Positions 20,151 through 44,416 of a DNA stretch of 64,000 bases are shown here, one piece after another. This DNA comes from Marasmius tenuissimus (taxonomy: Eukaryota; Basidiomycota; Agaricomycetes; Agaricales; Marasmiaceae), in contig JAQOTA010000052.1 of assembly GCA_029532415.1 (NCBI GenBank), positions 62,001 to 126,000 on the forward strand, given 5' to 3'. The first letter of the stretch is position 1. The number at the start of each line of letters is the position of its first letter. The notes beneath the pieces are model-generated. The model was given only the letters and a program-made list of their open reading frames with translations. It made no database searches and was not told the origin of the DNA. The position numbers and the translations under genes were made by a program.

Positions 20151-21958
20151 GGAGATTGAAGAAAGAAGGTGAGAGTTGGAGGAGTTACGCGACGCGTCTG
20201 GTCTGATGACAATGAAGAGTACAGTGACAGTTTGAGCGTTACCGTCACAGTAAGTCACACTACGACAAGTGTACGACATTACATATCACAAGTTCAAACC
20301 AGAACCAGGAACGGCTGAGTCAGGGCAAATTTTTCATCGCAACCACCTCCAGGACCGCCAGGCTGAGGTTGCTGTAGTATTTCCTGCAGTCGAACAGGTT
20401 GTAACTAAATCAACTAGGTATACAAGTCGTATACAGGTACAAAAGAATTGATGATCCGGCACTACTGATAAACCAATGAGAGTAAGAAATGGTAAAGCCT
20501 AAAGAGGACGCTCATTATGGAGTTATGACAACGATTTTTGCAACTAGAACAAAAGAGTGTGAGGCTGTCATGCACGGCCCTCTCGCATCACGGCCGCAGA
20601 ATCGAGCTTTGGTAACGAATGAAAAGTTCGGCCTGACAACATGGAACATTGGAGATCCGGTAAAGCAACCAACAACGATGAGAAAAGAGGTGTATAACGA
20701 TAGCAGCGTCTCAACCCTACTCCGAGAGAGAGGCATGGCCAGTGTTCGAGGAAAGCATTGCGCACTTAGGTCGGGACAACGTCGGGGACAGGGTCAGTAT
20801 GTAAATTTTTCAGGTAAGGTTGGAAGGACGGACTCACATGGGGGTCATTAGCATCGAAGTACGAAGTTCAAGCATTTACTCGTCTTCTCTGCGCCAGTCC
20901 CTGCTGCCAGTAATCTGCCTCCTCCAGTCCCGACTCCCCGTTATTTGACGTCTCCAGTCCCTGCTACCAGTGATCTGTCGCTCTTCGACTTCTGCAACCT
21001 GCCAACCAAGGTACCCGAATTCAGAACCAAGCATGGTCACCGAGAGGTAAAACAACTCACAGGGGCTGCGATCGCGGACGCAACGAAAAGAGTCAAAACG
21101 AGAGCATAGCTTCTCAGCAACATTGCTGGGTGATGTGGTTTAGGATGATGGGGATGGAGAGGGTTTGATTAGGAAAGTTGATATCACGGCGGGGCGGGGA
21201 AAAGGTCGCCCGCGCAAGACGCGCACTTTTAAGAGACTTGGGAAATATAAATTACCACAGGGACACTTGCTGGCAACAGAGATCATGATATAAACCGAAC
21301 CGGGTTCAAATTATGGGATCCAGGGGTTCGTCCATTCCGAGCCTCCGGGCTGCGCCATTCGGCATGGTTCCCCATTCAAAAGCTCCAATCCATGCAATGC
21401 CTCATGACAGGGACGTTGCTCCCACACATATGTGATAGCACCTTGTACCTGAGAGGAATCTGGGAAAGGGAATGGAAATCAACCCACGCGCGTGTCAGTT
21501 GAGACAACGGGATGTTCGAGATACTCAGTGCACGACCAGGCACCGCCGGTGTCGGCGCCATGGAATGGGCGAAGAGTAAAAGGGACACCGCAGTTTCTTT
21601 GAAACGGATGGGCCAGGTAGCTCAAAGCGCTCAGATCTCAGGTCCAAGTTACCGCTAGTAGCTGCCTACCACATACTGTAGCAGGTACAGGCAGGTACCT
21701 TGAGATCTTATACATCATCAAGATCCAGCGTTCGTACGTGTTTATAACGGACGGTTGGGCGTGATTGATAAGACACAACGTCACCAATGGGAAGTTCTAG
21801 TATTCGTGTGGTACAGATTTTCTTGAAAGAACACAAGCCGGAGTGCGCCGCGAACACTGAAAGACTGTACCACCTTTGGACTTCACGTGTGGGGTATGCG
21901 GGGGAAATGTAGGAGGAGGAATGTCATAGGCGTATCTTCGTACAAATCCCATCTGAAT
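20151..21958. other. Large intergenic region, MCM3 to PRP17
   Basis: 1.8 kb with no gene I can support. It includes the MCM3 promoter, a 120-codon open frame at 20489-20851 with no recognisable family, a threefold 30-base tandem repeat at 20894-20983, and the PRP17 3' region. Open frames on either strand are short and not linked by convincing splice sites. Confidence 0.5.
20894..20983 (+). repeat. Three tandem 30-base imperfect repeats
   Basis: Units begin at 20894, 20924 and 20954, each starting CCAGTCCC. Period is exactly 30 bases, so a frame is preserved: read on the plus strand the units give PVPAASNLPP, PVPTPRYLTS and PVPATSDLSL. The open frame runs from 20852, just after an acceptor-like TTAG, to a stop at 21109. 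No start codon or clean upstream donor in the right phase was found. It may be a small minisatellite or an exon of an unrecognised gene. Confidence 0.7.
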
Positions 21959-31963: not shown

Positions 31964-34703
31964 CTACTGCCAGGTCGAAGGGCCGAAAGTCTGGCCTTCT
32001 GGAGGCATCTTCAACGGAATGCCCATAAAGTCGGCAGTTTTATCCATGATCGTGTTTCCAATCCATTCAAGCCTCTTGCCGTTGGTAGGCAGGCTGACGA
32101 AAAGGAAGATTGCGACGAGAGATAGTGCGAGACCAGCTTCAAGGCCGGCGGAGAGGATGAAGTTGTATCGCATCCACCACCTGAAGTGACGGCGACGAAT
32201 CACGAAGTTGAAGATGAATCCAACGAGAGCCCACGAAGCATAGTTAATTCCGGAAGCAGGAGGAATTCCAGCTGCACCGGCGAACATGAGAGGGACGTTG
32301 ACGTATCTCCAGAAGGAGAGAGGGTAGCGACGAGCGAGGAAGTAGAAGGGGATGGGGAGGGCAGCACCGATGAGGAGGAAGTAGAGGGTGAAATTGTAGG
32401 GCTGGCCGGGGCTGAACAGACGTTGAGGGCCGATGGCTCCCCAAATGACGGTTGCTGTAGCAAAGGTCATTTGTCCCGGGCAAATGAATCCATCCTTCTG
32501 GTTACGTGTGCATACGTCCTCAACGTTCGCCAATACCCAGTTCTGGACACCATTGACTACGAAGCAGCTAATCGTCGCTGCGACAAGCTGGATAGTGAAC
32601 ATGGTGCGGGGAGGAATCTTCATGTAGTGGCCGAGCTTGAGATCGCCGACAAAGGCAACGGCCTGAGTGGTTGTGGCACCTGCAAGAACTTTGAAGATAC
32701 CGTTTGCGACGGGGCGATTGGGGAGCATGTAGCCTATGACAAGCTCGTGGAGCACCTGCAAGTTGTTGATACGCTGGTTGGTGAGTGCCTGGAGGATCGC
32801 CATGGGCAATGCAAGGATTCCACCAAGGACTACACCAATGATGCAAGCCCAGATAGGAAGCTCGGTCGGGAATAGGTGTATAGACACGAACAAGAAAACC
32901 ATGGAGATGACCCCGACAATCCCGTACCACCACAAAGGAGTCTCGGGGTAGACCTGCATGAGACGAGAGTGGATGTCCCGCTCGTCCTTCAGGGCACCTC
33001 GGAATCGACGTGCGATGTCGCGTCGGAACCAAACTGACGAGAAGTTAGCGACAGCATGTACCATGATCGAAGCACAACCACTCACGGAACGTATGGACGA
33101 CGACTGAAGTCATGGATCCGAAAGCCAAAGCGTAAGCGAAGATCAACGTGGCTGGGATGAACAACGGAGAATACAGTCGGTACTTCTCGACGTCGAACCT
33201 TCCGTCAGTGATGATAGCGGAAACGTTGTATGGGAGACCCATATTGTCGAACGACATCGCTGAAGAGATGGGCATATACGCCGTATTGAGACTGTTCGTG
33301 ACTGAAACGAAAATCAGCGCCAACTCCAGAACGAAAAGGCAGGACTCCTTACAGTAAACGATAGGGACTATGAGCCAGAACCAGAAGAACGTCGAGAAGA
33401 TCACATTCAATTGAGACCACCACTACAGAGAATGTTTAGTCCGTATCTGAGATAAAATGATGAAGCAGGACGCACTGGTGTAACGAGTGGGCTTCCAATG
33501 TAGGAAATCATAGCCCAGTCGAAGGTCAAGATACCCATTCCCAGACCGCTTCCTGTGCCAAACAGCGCATTCACCACAAGGTTCTCGGGTGCGATCCAGC
33601 ACACCCAGTTGAAGAAACTGAGTGCAGTAAAGAGATAGCCGGGTACCCAATGGTAAACAAAGCTACAGATCATGACGATGACGAAGAATTTCTCGCGCGA
33701 CATATGCCTTCGGTCCCGTTTACCGTAGTTCTTGTGCAGGGTGTTGAACAGGGCCGAGTTGACGAGGGCACCGGGCCAAATCATACTCGACGGCCAGACT
33801 ACGTATTGCCGCAAGAACCCAGCGATGGAGAACCCGATGATCTGAACGCCAAGGGAAAGGGTGATTTGGTAACCAAAGTTTAGCTTGTGGCCATAGAACA
33901 ATTCCTGACCGACGAAGACGTCGGTAGCGGCCGCGCCGCTGAAAACGATGTTGGTCATCACGGTGATGCAAACGTGCTCCTTGATGTTGAAAGGTCCAGG
34001 GTTCAGCGACCAGCGCCAACCGAATGTGTTGAACTGGTAAGTGGGCAAGATGTGCTCCAGTAGCTTGCCGAACGGGAGGGCGACTAGCTGTACAACGACG
34101 CTGCTGATGTAGGTGGATGGGTCTGTATGGAAGTGTCAGTTGATCCGATGAATGAGGAATGATGCTGGAGACGCACATCTGAAACTGAAGAGCTGATTCA
34201 AACCACAGACGAAGATGGAGAATACGATGCCGAGGAACCACATCCTGAAAGTGTTGACAGGCATGGTGGGGTCATCGACGCTAGCGACCGCAGCGCGGAC
34301 TTCGGGGTAAGGGGATTCACTGAATGTGGCGCAAGAGAGAAGCTATAAGTAAGTGGTATTGAAGAATACAATGCGGGACGCACTCGTCAAAGTCTACAGC
34401 TGTAGAGTTCCTGGACTCCGCTCGGGTGTACCGCTCTGATACACTATCGATGTGGGATTCTGTATCAACTTCCGAAGGAGAGTAGTGGAGCTGGTTGGCC
34501 TTCTTGTCATCGAGCTCCAGATCCTCCGTAGCTGTAGAGAGCAGAGGCCTCTTCAGATCCAGGTTGGGATCGTTGAGGTGGTCCATCACGTAGTCGATGT
34601 CCTCGGGCACATCGGGAACCCTTCGAGCCCGTAGGTGGTGTGTGGGAAAGGTCGGAAGATTGACATTGTCAGACGCGGTCGTGAAAGCTTTGCCGTCCTC
34701 CAT
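31964..34703 (-). CDS. OPT family oligopeptide transporter
   Basis: Proton-coupled transporter of the oligopeptide transporter (OPT) superfamily, a polytopic plasma-membrane protein importing small peptides or related compounds. After an acidic cytosolic N-terminus (MEDGKAFTTASDNVNLPT) about 14 to 16 hydrophobic segments follow over roughly 800 residues. Family hallmarks include NPGPFNIKEHVCITVMTNI near 34000, the QYVVWPSSMIWPGALVNSAL region near 33790, LTNQRINNLQVLHELVIGYM near 32770 and GHYMKIPPRTMF near 32610. The 3' exon ends at 31964 with EGQTFGPSTWQ. About seven exons. An in-frame ATG nine bases upstream (34712) is an equally possible start. It lies at the edge of the accessory region and could serve peptide uptake or export, but many fungal genomes have several such genes, so this is not evidence of a cluster by itself. 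Confidence 0.92.
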
Positions 34704-37160: not shown

Positions 37161-38330
37161 TCAGACCGAGCTACTCTCCAGGTCGGGGTGCTTGTGTAGC
37201 GACACTGTTTGGATGGTGGTTAAAGACGTTTCGGCTTTGTCAGTCTCGCTCCCAGTAAACGTCATATGAGTGGACGTTAATTGCTCGGAGGTATCTTTCG
37301 ACCAGGCGTGACCCATGGCAACACGAAGAATGATGAGCTGAGGAGAGAGCGCCTGTCGCAATGATGTGGCTTCAGAAAATGTTCCATTTCGAGAAAGAGT
37401 CCCCACTCACACAAAAGTCGCCCCAGACCTGCACAAACGCAATGGACGTAGGGCTATGCCGAGCGTAGGTAATAACGTAGATGATGCCGAGTATCGTGAA
37501 AGGTGCCGCAGATTCGACCATGATGGCGATAACGCTGGTGTACATCCTGGCGTGATGGGGGCCTAGAGTGTGTTGGATCTTGTTCTTAACCGCAATCAGA
37601 CGACCGCAAATCAAGAGAGTAACGATGATGTTCATGCTGATGGTCAGCGCTGTGTATGGCACACCAAAATCCACGACATGACCCTTGAAGAAGTTTGCCC
37701 CAGGTTGTGCACTCTCGTAGACCAGAAGAAGGGACATCGCTAGGGGGTTGGAAGGTAGTATCACTTCTTCAAAGCGAAGGTGAACTGCGACGTACAGAAT
37801 GTGCCGAGGTAGATCATGACAGGTAAGACTATTATCTTCCAAGAGGACCAGATGACGAAACACCTGTAGATCTAAAAACAGGGATGAAACAGGCCGACGT
37901 TCACGCACAGCGGGTCATCCCGTACCAGCAAAGCATCTGCCAACAGATTCAGTCCAATCCCTGCTGTTGTACCGAGGGTGTTGTACGGATCGGATATATG
38001 TTCCGCGATGTAAGCCGCAGGACCTCCCACGACGTCTCTGTGATCAATCCACGAAAACTGTCCGAAGATTGCATTGCACGACAGGGCAATCGTCCAGAGT
38101 ACGAGGAGGCACATTCCGTAACAGATGTAAAACCTTGAGTCTGACTTGTTACTGTGGGGCGGACGGCACATCAGGCGGCATGAGAGCACGAAAAGTACAA
38201 GGTGGATTCCTAGAGCACTGCTAGTATCAAGATGCTCTGAATGGTTGATGAAAACGCACCGTAAAGAATTCCGGTAATCTGTCCGCCAATGTACAAGGAC
38301 CGTTCAAAGATGAGGTCAACAGAACTCATA
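37161..38330 (-). CDS. Agaricomycete seven-helix membrane protein, unknown function
   Basis: Belongs to the very abundant, uncharacterised family of mushroom multi-pass proteins with about seven transmembrane helices and no assigned role. The start at 38330 (MSSVDLIFERSLYIGGQITG) has the usual opening; further segments are FYICYGMCLLVLWTIAL (about 38120), PYTALTISMNIIVTLLICGR (about 37640) and YTSVIAIMVESAAPFTILGI (about 37530). The cytosolic tail begins with the family-typical ALSPQLIILRVAMG (37345-37300) and ends at 37161 after a serine- and threonine-rich stretch. Five exons or so. The function is unknown; GPCR-like topology is often proposed but unproven. Confidence 0.8.
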
Positions 38331-39287: not shown

Positions 39288-40177
39288 TCATTTGCGAGGA
39301 TTGAGACGATCTTCAATGTATATAGACATATCCTGTTGATGATCCAATAGATGAGCGCGAGCCCATTCTTTGATCTTGTCAAAGTTTCGACAAGTGTGTA
39401 TGACATCACTTCTCTCCTTCGCGGCGTGCGACTTCTCGGACCATTGCCAGACGATTGGGCTGATGTCAGCTGAGCACATCAGTGATTGTCGAATGCTGGA
39501 GATGCAGTGGCGCATATGAGGCGTATGGATGCCCTCCGGAGTGTTTGGATAATGTTCTGGATACATGGCTTTACGCATCTGATTCTGATAGAGCTGAGTC
39601 GACGACTCGTAAAAGAGAGTTGAGCACCTACCAAGCAATGAAGCTGATGGAAGACATCAAGTGCTATCATATAGTGGTCTTCCTCTCCTAGAACTGGATA
39701 GGTCTTATTGGGCATGAGTGCGGCTTGATCTCGTGGAACTTTATTGTAAGAGTCTGGTTTCCTATCAGCCATCAAGCGAAAACCTGGCAGCGTCAAGGTC
39801 TCACATTCGTAAAGACCCTCCCAGGCGGCGTCAACTTGTGCAGAGGGCTCTTGATCGTATATGGGAATATCGGGTCCGAAACCGCTGTGGAACTGGACTG
39901 TAGTATATTCTACAGCGTCTTGGGCGGGTGCTATAGAATTGCCATGAGTAAAACAGTAAACTCTGGCGAGCAGCTGGCACGAACAATACAAGGCTTGCCC
40001 ATGGGGCGGATGTGCTGGAGTCTTGCACGCCCAGAAGACGAGGAAGCCCAGATTGAAAGTCACAGAAAACAATAAGCAAATAAACAGGCCCCAAGGGCTT
40101 CTTCGAGTCCTTTGAACTTCGGGTGACAAGAGGTCATCCTGGTTCTGGGCCAGCGGAAGATAAGTAGAGGACGGCAT
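39288..40177 (-). CDS. UstYa/DUF3328 family oxidase
   Basis: Membrane-anchored member of the UstYa (DUF3328) family; characterised members (UstYa/UstYb of ustiloxin, AprY of asperipin, PhomYs of phomopsin) act in oxidative cyclisation of ribosomal peptides. Three exons, 40177-39805, 39753-39632 and 39584-39288, give 792 bases and 263 residues. A basic-flanked transmembrane helix (LFICLLFSVTFNLGFLVFWA) follows the short cytosolic N-terminus. The lumenal domain shows VEYTTVQFHSGFGPDIPIY, PSAQVDAAWEGLYE and both HxxHC motifs: DVFHQLHCL at the end of exon 2 and HMRHC in exon 3, then SLMCSADISPIVWQW. All expected catalytic-motif residues are present. The repeat-peptide gene starts 1.7 kb away on the other strand. 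Confidence 0.93.
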
Positions 40178-41858
40178 ATGTGCGATGTTGTCAGAGCGAA
40201 GACGTCCAACGTTCGTTCTTCATATACTATGCGAAGATGCCGACAGATCATGATCTTGCTCTCTCAGTTGTCGAGCGGTACAGATTTGATACAAGTCCAA
40301 TCTTTCGGAGTGAAGTCCCATCCCGAGAGTATATCACCGACGAACAGCTTTCAGCAATAGTTGTTTTTTTTTTTTTTTGCGTAGTCGAGGAACACAGGCG
40401 TGTCAACGAATCAACGAGTACGTCCTAAAAACTACGGCAGGTCAATCATAGAGTGATACTTGCTTTCATTTCACGGGAACCTTAACTCACATAACACGTT
40501 CATCATCATCGCTGTCCAGTCTGCCATGAAAGTCGCAGCCGTGTCATCTATCAACGTTCACCACAAAGCGTATTGGTACTCCTGAGATCTTGGCGCCCAC
40601 AGGTGCTCAAATTAGACAGTGAGTTTTGCGCACTGCAGTGACAGTTGTTGATTGAGCTTTACGGTCCCACCGCCCCAGGCCAGCATCCACGAAAAGTTCG
40701 TCATGAGCCAACTCAGACCCCTTGAAGTTGCCGTTAGTCCATTCGAATTGCCTTTCGAGCCATGCATCGGCGAGTTGTCGTCCAAGTGCGGACCATGGTA
40801 CCACAATGGCGGGAGATTCGAGAGTTCGCGTGGGTTTGGATAGGTTTAGAGTGAGCGTGGGATACGACTTTACACCGCTGGAATGATTACAGAATCACGG
40901 GCCGAACTTTCATCCTGCAACTATCACCAATATTTGACATCCTCTAAAACGGCACGTACACGCCAGTCTCTACCTAGAATCAAGCTAAATATCGGCTGTG
41001 AAGACCTCGAGCGTCTTGACTTACACCTCACGAAATCACTGAACCAATACACGGCTGGATTTTCCTCCGACTGTCGCATGGCGTGTCCTAAGGGCTCTCC
41101 AGGAAATAGCGCCGCAATTAGGTACTATCTATGCGCTGAAGGATCTCATACGAGGGTCATGCATAGCGGATAACCGGAACCTCTGATAAGTCTTGTATCT
41201 TCTGGATATGGCGGCCCACCGAAGCCAAATCATCTACTAGAACATCTTCTCGAAAACCCATCGAACCTGGTATAGAAACGAGTTCTTAACTCTGCCTTCC
41301 TCAGATATAACTCGAATGTATCCCGGAATACACAGACTCCCGCAACTGACAACACAGGCTCCAGCTGTCGAGATGTCCTGTGTCTCATGTTCCTTTGGGT
41401 CCCTGTTGATTCAATTTTTGTATCAAGTTTCCTTTGACATACCTAATTAATGTCCATCTGTCTTTCATGGTGGCTGTCCTATGTCTATTTTCTAGGATCT
41501 TGTAGGCCTTCAGATTCAACGGGTAAGTAAGTTTGTAACACGTATCACTCGAACTGTTCAGCCTCCAGTGACCCATCATTCTTCCAGGCCCCACAACGGA
41601 AATAGCCACGGTCCTCTCACATATCCGCCACTCTTGTCAAGGAAGACAAGAAAGGAATGGCTTGACACTACTGTTATACCACTTGCGGGAGTGGTGCAAC
41701 GCCGAGTGGAGGTCGGCAAGACAGCCCAGGAAAGATCTCAAACAGCCAACGTTGGCCTATTTAAGAAGTAGCAGTTTGAGCTGAAAAAACCAGCAAAGGA
41801 CTTCCCTGTTCAAGCTACTCAGAGCTCTCTCTTCTTCCACGTCTCTCACACGTCTACA
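40178..41858. other. Region between UstYa-like and repeat-peptide genes
   Basis: 1.7 kb with no gene I can support. It holds divergent promoter space for the UstYa-like gene, a T-run of 15 bases (40364-40378), overlapping open frames on both strands at 40607-40843 with no recognised family, and the promoter of the repeat-peptide gene. A relic gene is possible but unproven. Confidence 0.5.
41758..41765 (+). promoter_or_regulatory. TATA-like box of the repeat-peptide gene
   Basis: TATTTAAG lies 93 bases before the ATG at 41859, a normal distance for a fungal secreted-protein gene with a short leader. Confidence 0.5.
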
Positions 41859-42861
41859 ATGAAATTTGCCGTCGTCTTCGCCGTGGTGTCTGCGGCCAGC
41901 TTCATCGCTGCTCTACCCACCCCGACGGGTTCGTTTGCCATCCGTGTCTTCAAGAGGACGTTCTACTGATGGTTAAAAGACCTTCCGTCGCTCTCCAAGC
42001 TCCATGCAAGACAGACTACCAACATCTTCGCGGCGGACGCATGGGAGAATGAGTGAGTTCAAACCCTCAGCAATGTTCAGCTTCCCTCCTGACGAAGAGC
42101 ATCTGAATCTCAGAAACACACAGAACGGTGGGTTCGCAACACTAGAATGGAAGCCAAGTAGTGACGACGCAGCACCGACGACAGCCAATGTACAAGCGAC
42201 CAGGTTCGTATCCTACACCGAGGCCTTTAAGCTCGAGTTGACCGTGATTCCTGGTTGTCACCAGCTCCAAACCGCTAGGTGAGAACACTTGAAGCCCTAT
42301 ACAACTCGCTCACATGCGTTCTAAACTCTACAGGTGAACGAATCTTTGCGTACGCAGCTTGGGAGGAAGATGGGCAAGTCGGTCCAGTCTATCGCCATGC
42401 TTCTGGTCCTAAGTCTCTCCTTTAGAAACCAGAAACGCTCCATGCAGCATGGCAATGGTGGTAAGTATAGCTATGCTTGACGACTCGACCGCCCAGCTAA
42501 GACTGTCTAGATGATATATTTGCCAAATCCGCGTGGGCTGGCGTTCCGCGAGAGTAAGTTCATATCCAGTGCCTACAAGTCTGATGCTCGAAATTCGAAG
42601 CTCATGTGTTCTTACCAGGACCGGTCGACTCGCCCTCGCTAAGTACGATATCAGCCTACGTCCCTACGTATACAATGCTGACATTTTCTCCGTTTGATAG
42701 AGATGAGCCCGCCGGGGTTTTGACATCGACCGATGCCGAAGCCACTATTGCTCCCAAGTAGGTATCTTCCATGGCCTTCCAAGCACGGTACTGAAGCCTC
42801 TTCCTTCAGCTCTGGGACCCCCCCTCCCATTTTTGCGTTCGACGCCTGGGAAGCAGAGTGA
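41859..42861 (+). CDS. Secreted repeat protein, candidate ribosomal peptide precursor
   Basis: Not an open frame in any one reading; I built it by splicing. Ten exons: 41859-41928, 41980-42052, 42114-42203, 42265-42278, 42334-42373, 42426-42460, 42511-42553, 42619-42642, 42701-42757, 42810-42861. They total 498 bases, or 165 residues, with nine introns of 50-65 bases; one (42374-42425) has a GC donor. A signal peptide opens the protein (MKFAVVFAVVSAASFIAALP). Then four copies of a core IFAxxAW appear at residues 39-45, 86-92, 110-116 and 156-162, plus a weaker one at 54-60 (GFATLEW). The last core sits at the very C-terminus (IFAFDAWEAE). A dibasic KR, a possible Kex2 site, is at 99-100. The multi-core secreted layout is that of dikaritin precursors such as UstA, and a UstYa homologue lies 1.7 kb upstream. 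Seen: exons, repeats, signal peptide. Inferred: precursor role. The alternative is a repeat-containing secreted effector or structural peptide. Confidence 0.8.
42024..42852 (+). repeat. Five core-peptide repeats split over separate exons
   Basis: Cores of eight codons lie at 42024-42047 (IFAADAWE), 42130-42153 (GFATLEWK, diverged), 42342-42365 (IFAYAAWE), 42516-42539 (IFAKSAWA) and 42829-42852 (IFAFDAWE). Each is in its own exon. The alanine before tryptophan uses four different codons (GCA, GCT, GCG, GCC) in the four good copies, so the protein is conserved while DNA has drifted. Confidence 0.88.
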
Positions 42862-43540: not shown

Positions 43541-44416
43541 ATGGTCGCTACCATTCTGCTCCTCTCTCTTTTCGCGCTCGCTGACTTGGTCCAATCATCC
43601 CCGTACACCAGGCGGGCTGACCCGGTCTGGAAGACACTACCGCCCACTCCTCAGTTACCGTCTCCCATCAGTACTGAGAAGGCGGCTATCGACAGCGTTC
43701 AGCTCTGGTTCCAAAAGTACAACGAGGCAGCAGGCGGCACTCCTGTTGTCTTCATACACGGCGGACTTGGATATTCAGCCTATTTCGCAGACGTGATCAA
43801 ATCCGTCATGAAGAATCACTACGTGATTGCTGTAGACAGGCGGGGCCATGGAAGGAGTACCTACGGAGCCCAAGATGTCTTTAGCTTCGAAGGATTCGCC
43901 AAGGACACCCACGACCTGCTCAAAGCCAAGGGAGTGAATAGCGCGATGTGGGTCGGGTGGTCCGATGGTGCCGCGACAACCCTCGCGGCCTTGATGGATT
44001 CAGGAATCGCACCCTCCATCGCAAAAGCGTTTGTCTTTGCCGGCTTTCAGAGCGCGAAAGACACCAATAGCTCTTTCACCGATACGGCGATTTACCAGAC
44101 GTTTGTGTCTCGTTGCGCAGAAGAGTACCCCGAGCTACAACCTGGAGCCAACTTCACCGATTTTGCTACGAAGGTCGGCACCCTCGAGAATACCCAGCCC
44201 AACTGGAGCGACGCTGCCATTGCGAAGATCGACGGTTCCAAGGTGACGATTTCGGGCGCAGACCACGATGAGGCCGTCAACCTTGCCGTCCCAGAGCATT
44301 TGCACTCCGTGATCAAGGGTAGCAAGCTTGTTATGATGACCGGTGTCAGCCACTTTGCACCTCTTCAGGACTCGGCACAGTTTTCCAAGAGGATCGAGGA
44401 GTTTATCGCTTCGTAG
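43541..44416 (+). CDS. Secreted alpha/beta hydrolase
   Basis: Intronless gene for a 291-residue alpha/beta hydrolase with a signal peptide (MVATILLLSLFALADLVQSS) and a possible Kex2-like site (TRR) just after it. The oxyanion region is PVVFIHGGLGYSAYF, the nucleophile elbow GWSDGAA (serine in GxSxG), the likely acid in ISGADHDE and the histidine in TGVSHFAPL. This order and spacing fit a complete triad. I start at 43541 because of the TATA-like box upstream and because it gives a clean signal peptide; an in-frame ATG at 43412 would add 43 residues. The substrate is unknown. It is the only single-exon gene in the accessory region, which may hint at a retro-copied or transferred origin. It might act on the nearby peptide product, but this is only proximity. 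Confidence 0.88.
   Translation: MVATILLLSLFALADLVQSSPYTRRADPVWKTLPPTPQLPSPISTEKAAIDSVQLWFQKYNEAAGGTPVVFIHGGLGYSAYFADVIKSVMKNHYVIAVDRRGHGRSTYGAQDVFSFEGFAKDTHDLLKAKGVNSAMWVGWSDGAATTLAALMDSGIAPSIAKAFVFAGFQSAKDTNSSFTDTAIYQTFVSRCAEEYPELQPGANFTDFATKVGTLENTQPNWSDAAIAKIDGSKVTISGADHDEAVNLAVPEHLHSVIKGSKLVMMTGVSHFAPLQDSAQFSKRIEEFIAS

Follow-up and report, generated by a model that had tools for sequence, protein, structure and literature searches.

Within a 64,000-nucleotide stretch of the basidiomycete Marasmius tenuissimus (the window; bases 62001-126000 of contig JAQOTA010000052.1, C5 below, from an assembly of 71 Mb in 70 contigs), a gene for a UstYa protein (39288-40177, minus strand) stands head-to-head with a gene for a putative secreted peptide precursor (41859-42861, plus strand) in which a short core, IFAxxAW, occurs four times. 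The genome also gave one match, of 29 bits, to PF08015, a mating-pheromone family that is not known outside basidiomycetes. The UstYa gene has two exons and codes for 280 residues, its 39288 end taking in the stop codon. Exon 1 (39632-40177, minus) runs from the start codon through an N-terminal hydrophobic stretch to the first HxxHC motif, HQLHC, and exon 2 (39288-39584, minus) from just past HQLHC(L) to the stop, with the second motif, HMRHC. The match to PF11807 (DUF3328) reaches 162.3 bits and covers residues 22-260 and profile positions 3-220 of 220, which is the full domain and agrees with the original prediction of a complete UstYa/DUF3328 gene with both motifs. These two exons are the only PF11807 pieces listed on the contig, and a search for solved-structure relatives of the protein returned none at E<=1. 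By analogy with its family, the protein is probably a membrane-anchored oxidase.

The precursor gene codes for 165 residues in a frame that is open to a single stop, and its ten exons are separated by nine introns of 50-65 nt, eight of them GT-AG and one GC-AG (42374-42425). Exon 1 (41859-41928) encodes a hydrophobic N-terminus, MKFAVVFAVVSAASFIAALPTPT, which when read by eye resembles a signal peptide. The cores lie in exon 2 (41980-42052; core 1, IFAADAW, at 42024-42044), exon 5 (42334-42373; core 2, IFAYAAW, at 42342-42362, with a single Arg directly before it), exon 7 (42511-42553; core 3, IFAKSAW, at 42516-42536) and exon 10 (42810-42861; core 4, IFAFDAW, at 42829-42849, followed by the stop). 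Exons 4 (42265-42278), 6 (42426-42460), 8 (42619-42642) and 9 (42701-42757) are spacers; the sixth, which follows the GC-AG intron, holds the sole dibasic site of the precursor, one KR, as had been foreseen. Exon 3 (42114-42203) carries a degenerate copy, GFATLEW. A splice dynamic programme that weighs codon use and splice signals only, and is blind to the motif, recovered the same exons except for an extra 45-nt intron (42128-42172) within exon 3. Its score for the precursor was 36.1, compared with 4.5 for the opposite strand of the same stretch and with a mean of 5.9 and a maximum of 14.6 for 100 dinucleotide-preserving shuffles, and the predicted ten-exon precursor with repeated cores is thereby upheld. 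Because the extra intron would delete GFATLEW, we treat that copy as doubtful and count four secure cores instead of the five originally proposed. No Pfam family was found for the precursor at E<=0.01; EstA_Ig_like (E 0.011) and MS_N (E 0.17) both fell under their family cut-offs and were rejected. A tandem-repeat origin of the cores was likewise rejected, since Tandem Repeats Finder reported no repeat in the gene.

The codon pattern of IFAxxAW has 16 matches in the 71 Mb, against six for a reversed control pattern. Four of the 16 lie in the precursor gene and the other 12 are scattered, and the rough Poisson chance of finding four in this kilobase is about 2e-18. The four cores differ in their synonymous codons, with ATC, ATC, ATA and ATT for Ile and GCA, GCT, GCG and GCC for the second Ala. 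Any two copies agree at 57-76% of positions within the 21-base core, at 13-30% in the 30 bases upstream and at 15-35% in 20 bases starting nine past the core, the nine bases right after it being intermediate (22-67%). As far as codons can tell, fixed core amino acids with synonymous drift are the pattern expected of selection on the peptide.

The original prediction had counted the distance between the two genes as a weak point, on the view that they were not immediately adjacent. The divergent intergenic region (40178-41858) measures 1681 bp from start codon to start codon, and splice models for a further gene within it scored 3.1 and 12.0, both within the shuffle range. As the gap holds no credible gene, that view has to be corrected, and the UstYa and precursor genes are immediate divergent neighbours.

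The same pairing recurs elsewhere in the genome. A PF11807 profile search of the contigs gave 26 matching pieces, grouped into 12 places, all of which (the 11 outside the window in 16 pieces) were scanned in any frame for repeated eight-residue stretches; the search for precursors covered only the neighbourhood of UstYa genes. Multi-core precursors that begin with a signal-like sequence were found at six of the 12 places, seven genes in all. Besides the window, these places are C7 at 4.573 Mb (12 VDxxNxxW-type cores in the model and 15 core-coding stretches in the DNA; gap to the UstYa gene 1079 bp), C11 at 773 kb (21 VD[AT]RFSPW cores; 1336 bp), C11 at 673 kb (four VDLQFPxW cores, as in VDLQFPKW; 564 bp), C23 at 2.490-2.492 Mb (two precursor genes with two and four cores, the second with VDNANxINR[WY]; 1012 bp) and C32 at 302 kb (three DxAFPYW cores; 785 bp). 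The models are rough for the first C23 gene, for C32 and for the 3' end of C7. One UstYa gene was modelled at each of these places, apart from C7 with two in tandem. At all six the UstYa and precursor genes diverge from one intergenic region of 564-1681 bp, for which the chance is 2.4e-4 if orientation is random and the places are independent. No precursor was found at the remaining six places (C68, C27, C30, two on C36, and C11 at 591 kb). Genome scans returned 280 matches to VDxxFxxW and 168 to VDxxNxxW, with 94 and 102 for the reversed controls, and among the matches listed (about the first hundred of each) clusters of at least three per 2 kb occurred only at C7:4.57 Mb, C11:673 kb and C11:773 kb.

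In the repeat scan the window gene scored 95 with a four-copy cluster, and the C32 cluster scored 102 with three copies, likewise near control level. The controls (18 segments, 88 kb, of a mean length below that of the test pieces, 12 of them flanks of stray IFAxxAW matches) reached 94 at best, with three copies in a tandem stretch, and 75 at best with four copies. What supports the window gene is its codon pattern, its splice model and the recurrence of the pairing, not the repeat score. Two candidates from these scans were discarded. A proline-rich repeat at C11:595.8 kb (six copies, score 128) is of low complexity and has no Trp in its listed copies. Single VD-x5-W peptides, proposed as further cores, amounted to seven unclustered matches in four of the seven places scanned, with no chance level computed; one of them lies inside the window at 40690 on the minus strand.

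Several features of the sister places are recorded as observations. At C11:773372-775091 the 21 near-identical VDARFSPW cores are mostly followed by GKR and by EA/SA-rich, alpha-factor-like spacers. At C7:4569300-4575400 two tandem UstYa genes diverge from a 20-exon precursor model, doubtful at its 3' end, with about one core per exon. About 4 kb away from the UstYa gene and precursor of the VDLQFPKW place, at C11:667830-669065, frames of an O-methyltransferase (PF00891) may represent a tailoring enzyme.

The UstYa genes themselves fall into two types. In a tree of 18 UstYa pieces a long branch with a support of 0.998 separates a long type (eight) from a short type (ten), the short-type pieces in the tree being domain fragments of 64-99 residues; the gene modelling left out C11:591 kb, where the PF11807 match is weak. 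All seven UstYa genes of the six precursor-bearing places belong to the long type, together with an orphan on C68. A UstYa gene is the immediate neighbour of a precursor in 6/8 long-type but 0/10 short-type cases (Fisher 0.0015), and lies within 10 kb of one in 7/8 and 2/10 (Fisher 0.015), the two short-type genes being those on C11 at 778 and 782 kb. Counted by places, a precursor accompanies six of seven long-type and none of five short-type places (0.015), and a mixed count of 7/8 versus 0/10 (2.5e-4) was set aside. As paralogues are not independent, we use all these statistics as guides only. The short-type UstYa-like genes (C27, C30, C36 and C11:778-782 kb) are often paired, and five of the ten matched pieces have neither HxxHC motif.

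The residue kept nearly throughout is Trp: among the cores counted, over all families, only one lacks it, a core of the second C23 gene (one of four) that has Tyr in its place. Tyr is invariant in one family only, DxAFPYW. In the window Trp is found in all four cores and Tyr in one, so a close likeness to ustiloxin-type cores is not supported. For this comparison the cores were cut at Trp, and the sequence that follows varies (GKR, DRKR, TI, AR, E). Dibasic positions, counted as overlapping KR, RR, KK and RK, number 20, 6, 5, 5, 1, 0 and 0 in the seven precursors; the two C11 precursors have 20 and 5 and the window precursor one. With none in either C23 precursor, the scarcity of dibasic sites is not confined to the window gene. 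In the sister precursors dibasic sites stand beside the cores in both C11 genes and in C32. To the eye, A-rich dipeptide spacers resembling those of STE13 processing and alpha-factor come after the basic sites of the C7 precursor and of one from C11 (C11b), and the window precursor has no clear pattern of STE13-type XA/XP dipeptides.

Within the window, 26 frames, drawn mostly from 88 candidate frames with a few picked by eye, were searched against Pfam, and none of these matched a tyrosinase, a cytochrome P450 or a flavin-containing monooxygenase. Near the pair, matches on the minus strand were to an OPT transporter (31967-34135) and those on the plus strand to a TauD dioxygenase (36.1-36.8 kb), an alpha/beta hydrolase (43541-44416) and ALG10 (45.2 kb). 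The hydrolase has a signal-like N-terminus, MVATILLLSLFALADLVQSS, with RR a few residues further, and one may speculate that it is the only conceivable peptide-processing partner near the pair. Open frames adjoining the UstYa gene (37375-38303, minus) resemble by eye a multi-span membrane protein and have no Pfam match. A short tandem stretch, TGSRDWRR, lies at about 20900-20971 on the minus strand with two listed copies 30 bases apart, and is the best three-copy match of the control scan mentioned above.

We think it likely that the UstYa and precursor genes form one divergently arranged unit that makes oxidised, secreted peptides, and their pairing is very probably real and probably functional. 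The sequence itself gives the gene structures, motifs, orientation and recurrence; secretion, cleavage, oxidation and function of the product are inferred. The precursor would enter the secretory pathway by way of its signal-like N-terminus, and would be cleaved at single Arg residues, at its one KR and at other sites, trimming by peptidases then yielding several similar IFAxxAW peptides. Products of Coprinopsis Kex2-processed repeat proteins (KEPs) expressed in Pichia were possibly cut after a single Arg (PMC9769878). A membrane-bound UstYa protein would meet the precursor in the secretory pathway and oxidise the cores. According to published descriptions, UstY enzymes cross-link side chains by means of a dicopper site and oxygen (PMC12186524), and in cyclochlorotine enzymes of the UstYa family carry out hydroxylation and chlorination (PMC12048977). 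Because Trp is the aromatic residue kept nearly throughout the cores, oxidation would most likely take place at or through it, giving, to judge from the enzyme family, a cross-linked, dehydrogenated or hydroxylated peptide, which may be secreted and serve as a signal or affect other organisms. For IFAADAW, IFAYAAW, IFAKSAW and IFAFDAW the computed [M+H]+ values are 793.388, 841.424, 822.451 and 869.419 in linear form, and 791.372, 839.409, 820.435 and 867.404 with two hydrogens lost. The original proposal of a UstYa and precursor peptide system gains from the five further head-to-head places, and the cross-link itself stays a prediction.

The closest known systems are the dikaritins (ustiloxin, phomopsin, asperipin-2a and victorin), which combine a secreted multi-core precursor, as the window precursor may be, with a neighbouring UstYa/DUF3328 gene bearing HxxHC motifs, and by analogy the window unit would work like a dikaritin unit. 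Two dikaritin features, repeated cores (four) and a UstYa neighbour, are present in the window; what the precursor lacks is dibasic spacing and a Tyr conserved in its cores. The window cores instead conserve Trp, with no KR, RR or KK between them, and a single UstYa gene is part of a head-to-head, two-gene layout. In the ustiloxin and phomopsin type a conserved core Tyr serves for cyclisation. A review that places the dikaritins under ascomycetes states that victorin uses Phe (PMC9233826). The basidiomycete KEPs, including those that are Trp-ended and of STE13 type, share with the window precursor a signal-like start and repeated Trp-bearing cores, but the latter differs in its one dibasic site, one core per exon, unconserved spacers and adjoining UstYa gene. 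Dibasic spacing and core Tyr having been looked for without success, we class the window precursor neither as a dikaritin nor as a KEP. The epichloecyclins (gigA) derive from a secreted precursor with imperfect repeats that are thought to be cross-linked, much as the window peptides would; their cross-links are between Ile and Tyr and their processing is likely by Kex2 (PMC9233826), in contrast to the window cores without a conserved Tyr. The burpitides of plant BURP-domain proteins undergo copper-dependent side-chain cross-linking (PMC12186524), which is an analogy only, as enzyme family and host are different.

The expectation that basidiomycetes have few described loci of this kind was only partly right. 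Of the 1680 basidiomycete KEPs in Umemura 2020 (PMC7329392), 103 are reported to be accompanied by DUF3328 genes, and so are 17 of 76 homologues of putative basidiomycete pheromones. That paper gives a mean KEP-DUF3328 distance of 3.09 genes for the whole set of fungi it surveyed, and considers that KEP cyclisation might hardly occur in Basidiomycota, KEPs near DUF3328 being few. In lichen clusters for ribosomally synthesised and post-translationally modified peptides, precursors are usually about three genes from DUF3328 genes (PMC12048977). Pleurotus is reported to have 16 UstYa-like genes, six of them developmentally expressed (eLife 2022, PMC8893723). STE13-type KEPs are present in Basidiomycota (Le Marquer 2019, PMC6339444), and many basidiomycete KEPs have cores ending in Trp (Vogt 2022, PMC9769878), a paper whose main text mentions neither UstY nor DUF3328. 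We found no report of IFAxxAW or of a head-to-head rule in the open-access texts consulted, supplements excluded, which is weak evidence of absence.

A number of observations weigh against the unit that we favour. KR, RR or KK do not flank the repeats of the window precursor, which has one dibasic site for four cores. For a long-type UstYa gene with both motifs at C68:104395-105427 no precursor was found in the 4.5 kb beyond its start, and no k-mer proved common to the intergenic regions of all six pairs. Shared ancestry of the six places is possible, in which case the orientation and type counts are not independent. At C7:5752934-5753363 there is a possible secreted gene with VDxxNxxW-like cores (VDNANSGW, DPCNSGW and VDFCNNGW, two of them with Cys) and no UstYa match nearby; its model is weak (score 9.4, within the shuffle range), and it is possible that such cores do not always accompany UstYa. 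Finally, the KEP peptides so far detected in mushrooms are described as linear or minimally modified (PMC9769878). This last point, the reported Trp-ended cores and STE13 signatures of basidiomycete KEPs, the alpha-factor-like spacers seen by eye in C11b and C7, and the possible UstYa-free gene at C7:5.753 Mb would all suit linear, unmodified Trp-bearing peptides, acting as alpha-pheromone-like signals or hormones, with UstYa serving another substrate. We nevertheless hold this to be rather unlikely, given the head-to-head UstYa gene at six of six precursor places, in a search confined to the surroundings of UstYa genes, and the link of the precursors to the long UstYa type.

Two further explanations were weighed. 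That the pair is a formerly working unit now in decay strikes us as improbable: its one dibasic site, the degenerate GFATLEW and the longest gap of the six (1681 bp) could be read that way, but the frame and splice signals are kept over ten exons, the cores stay fixed while their codons drift, and the UstYa gene is intact. More improbable still, to the point of being hard to credit, is a role that has nothing to do with the oxidase, in which the repeat protein would give rise to secreted peptides of a structural or surface-active kind, as does Rep1 of Ustilago. A signal-like start, repeats and few processing sites fit such a protein; cores of only seven residues in unconserved surrounding DNA, and the same UstYa arrangement at five other places, do not.

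The six-fold recurrence of the divergent unit with differing cores suggests that a family of ribosomal peptide products has gone unnoticed. Tentatively, and with less confidence than for the unit itself, we propose a family of head-to-head units whose UstYa enzymes target Trp, with IFAxxAW, VDxxFxxW, VDxxNxxW and related cores giving rise to Trp-bridged or Trp-oxidised peptides, some of them released at single basic residues. At two of the six divergent places (C5 and C23) there are precursors with one or no dibasic site, and counts of KEPs near DUF3328 genes may be underestimates where precursors that are monobasic and split by introns go unrecognised. A UstYa gene with a divergent precursor offers a practical search rule for more such units. 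The Trp cores also make a direct chemical prediction for UstYa, whose known examples, according to the sources cited, act through Tyr or Phe cross-links or on cyclochlorotine. If the proposal is correct, these fungal genes would represent a Trp-centred class of UstYa ribosomal peptides, one that would be partly missed by searches requiring dibasic repeats.

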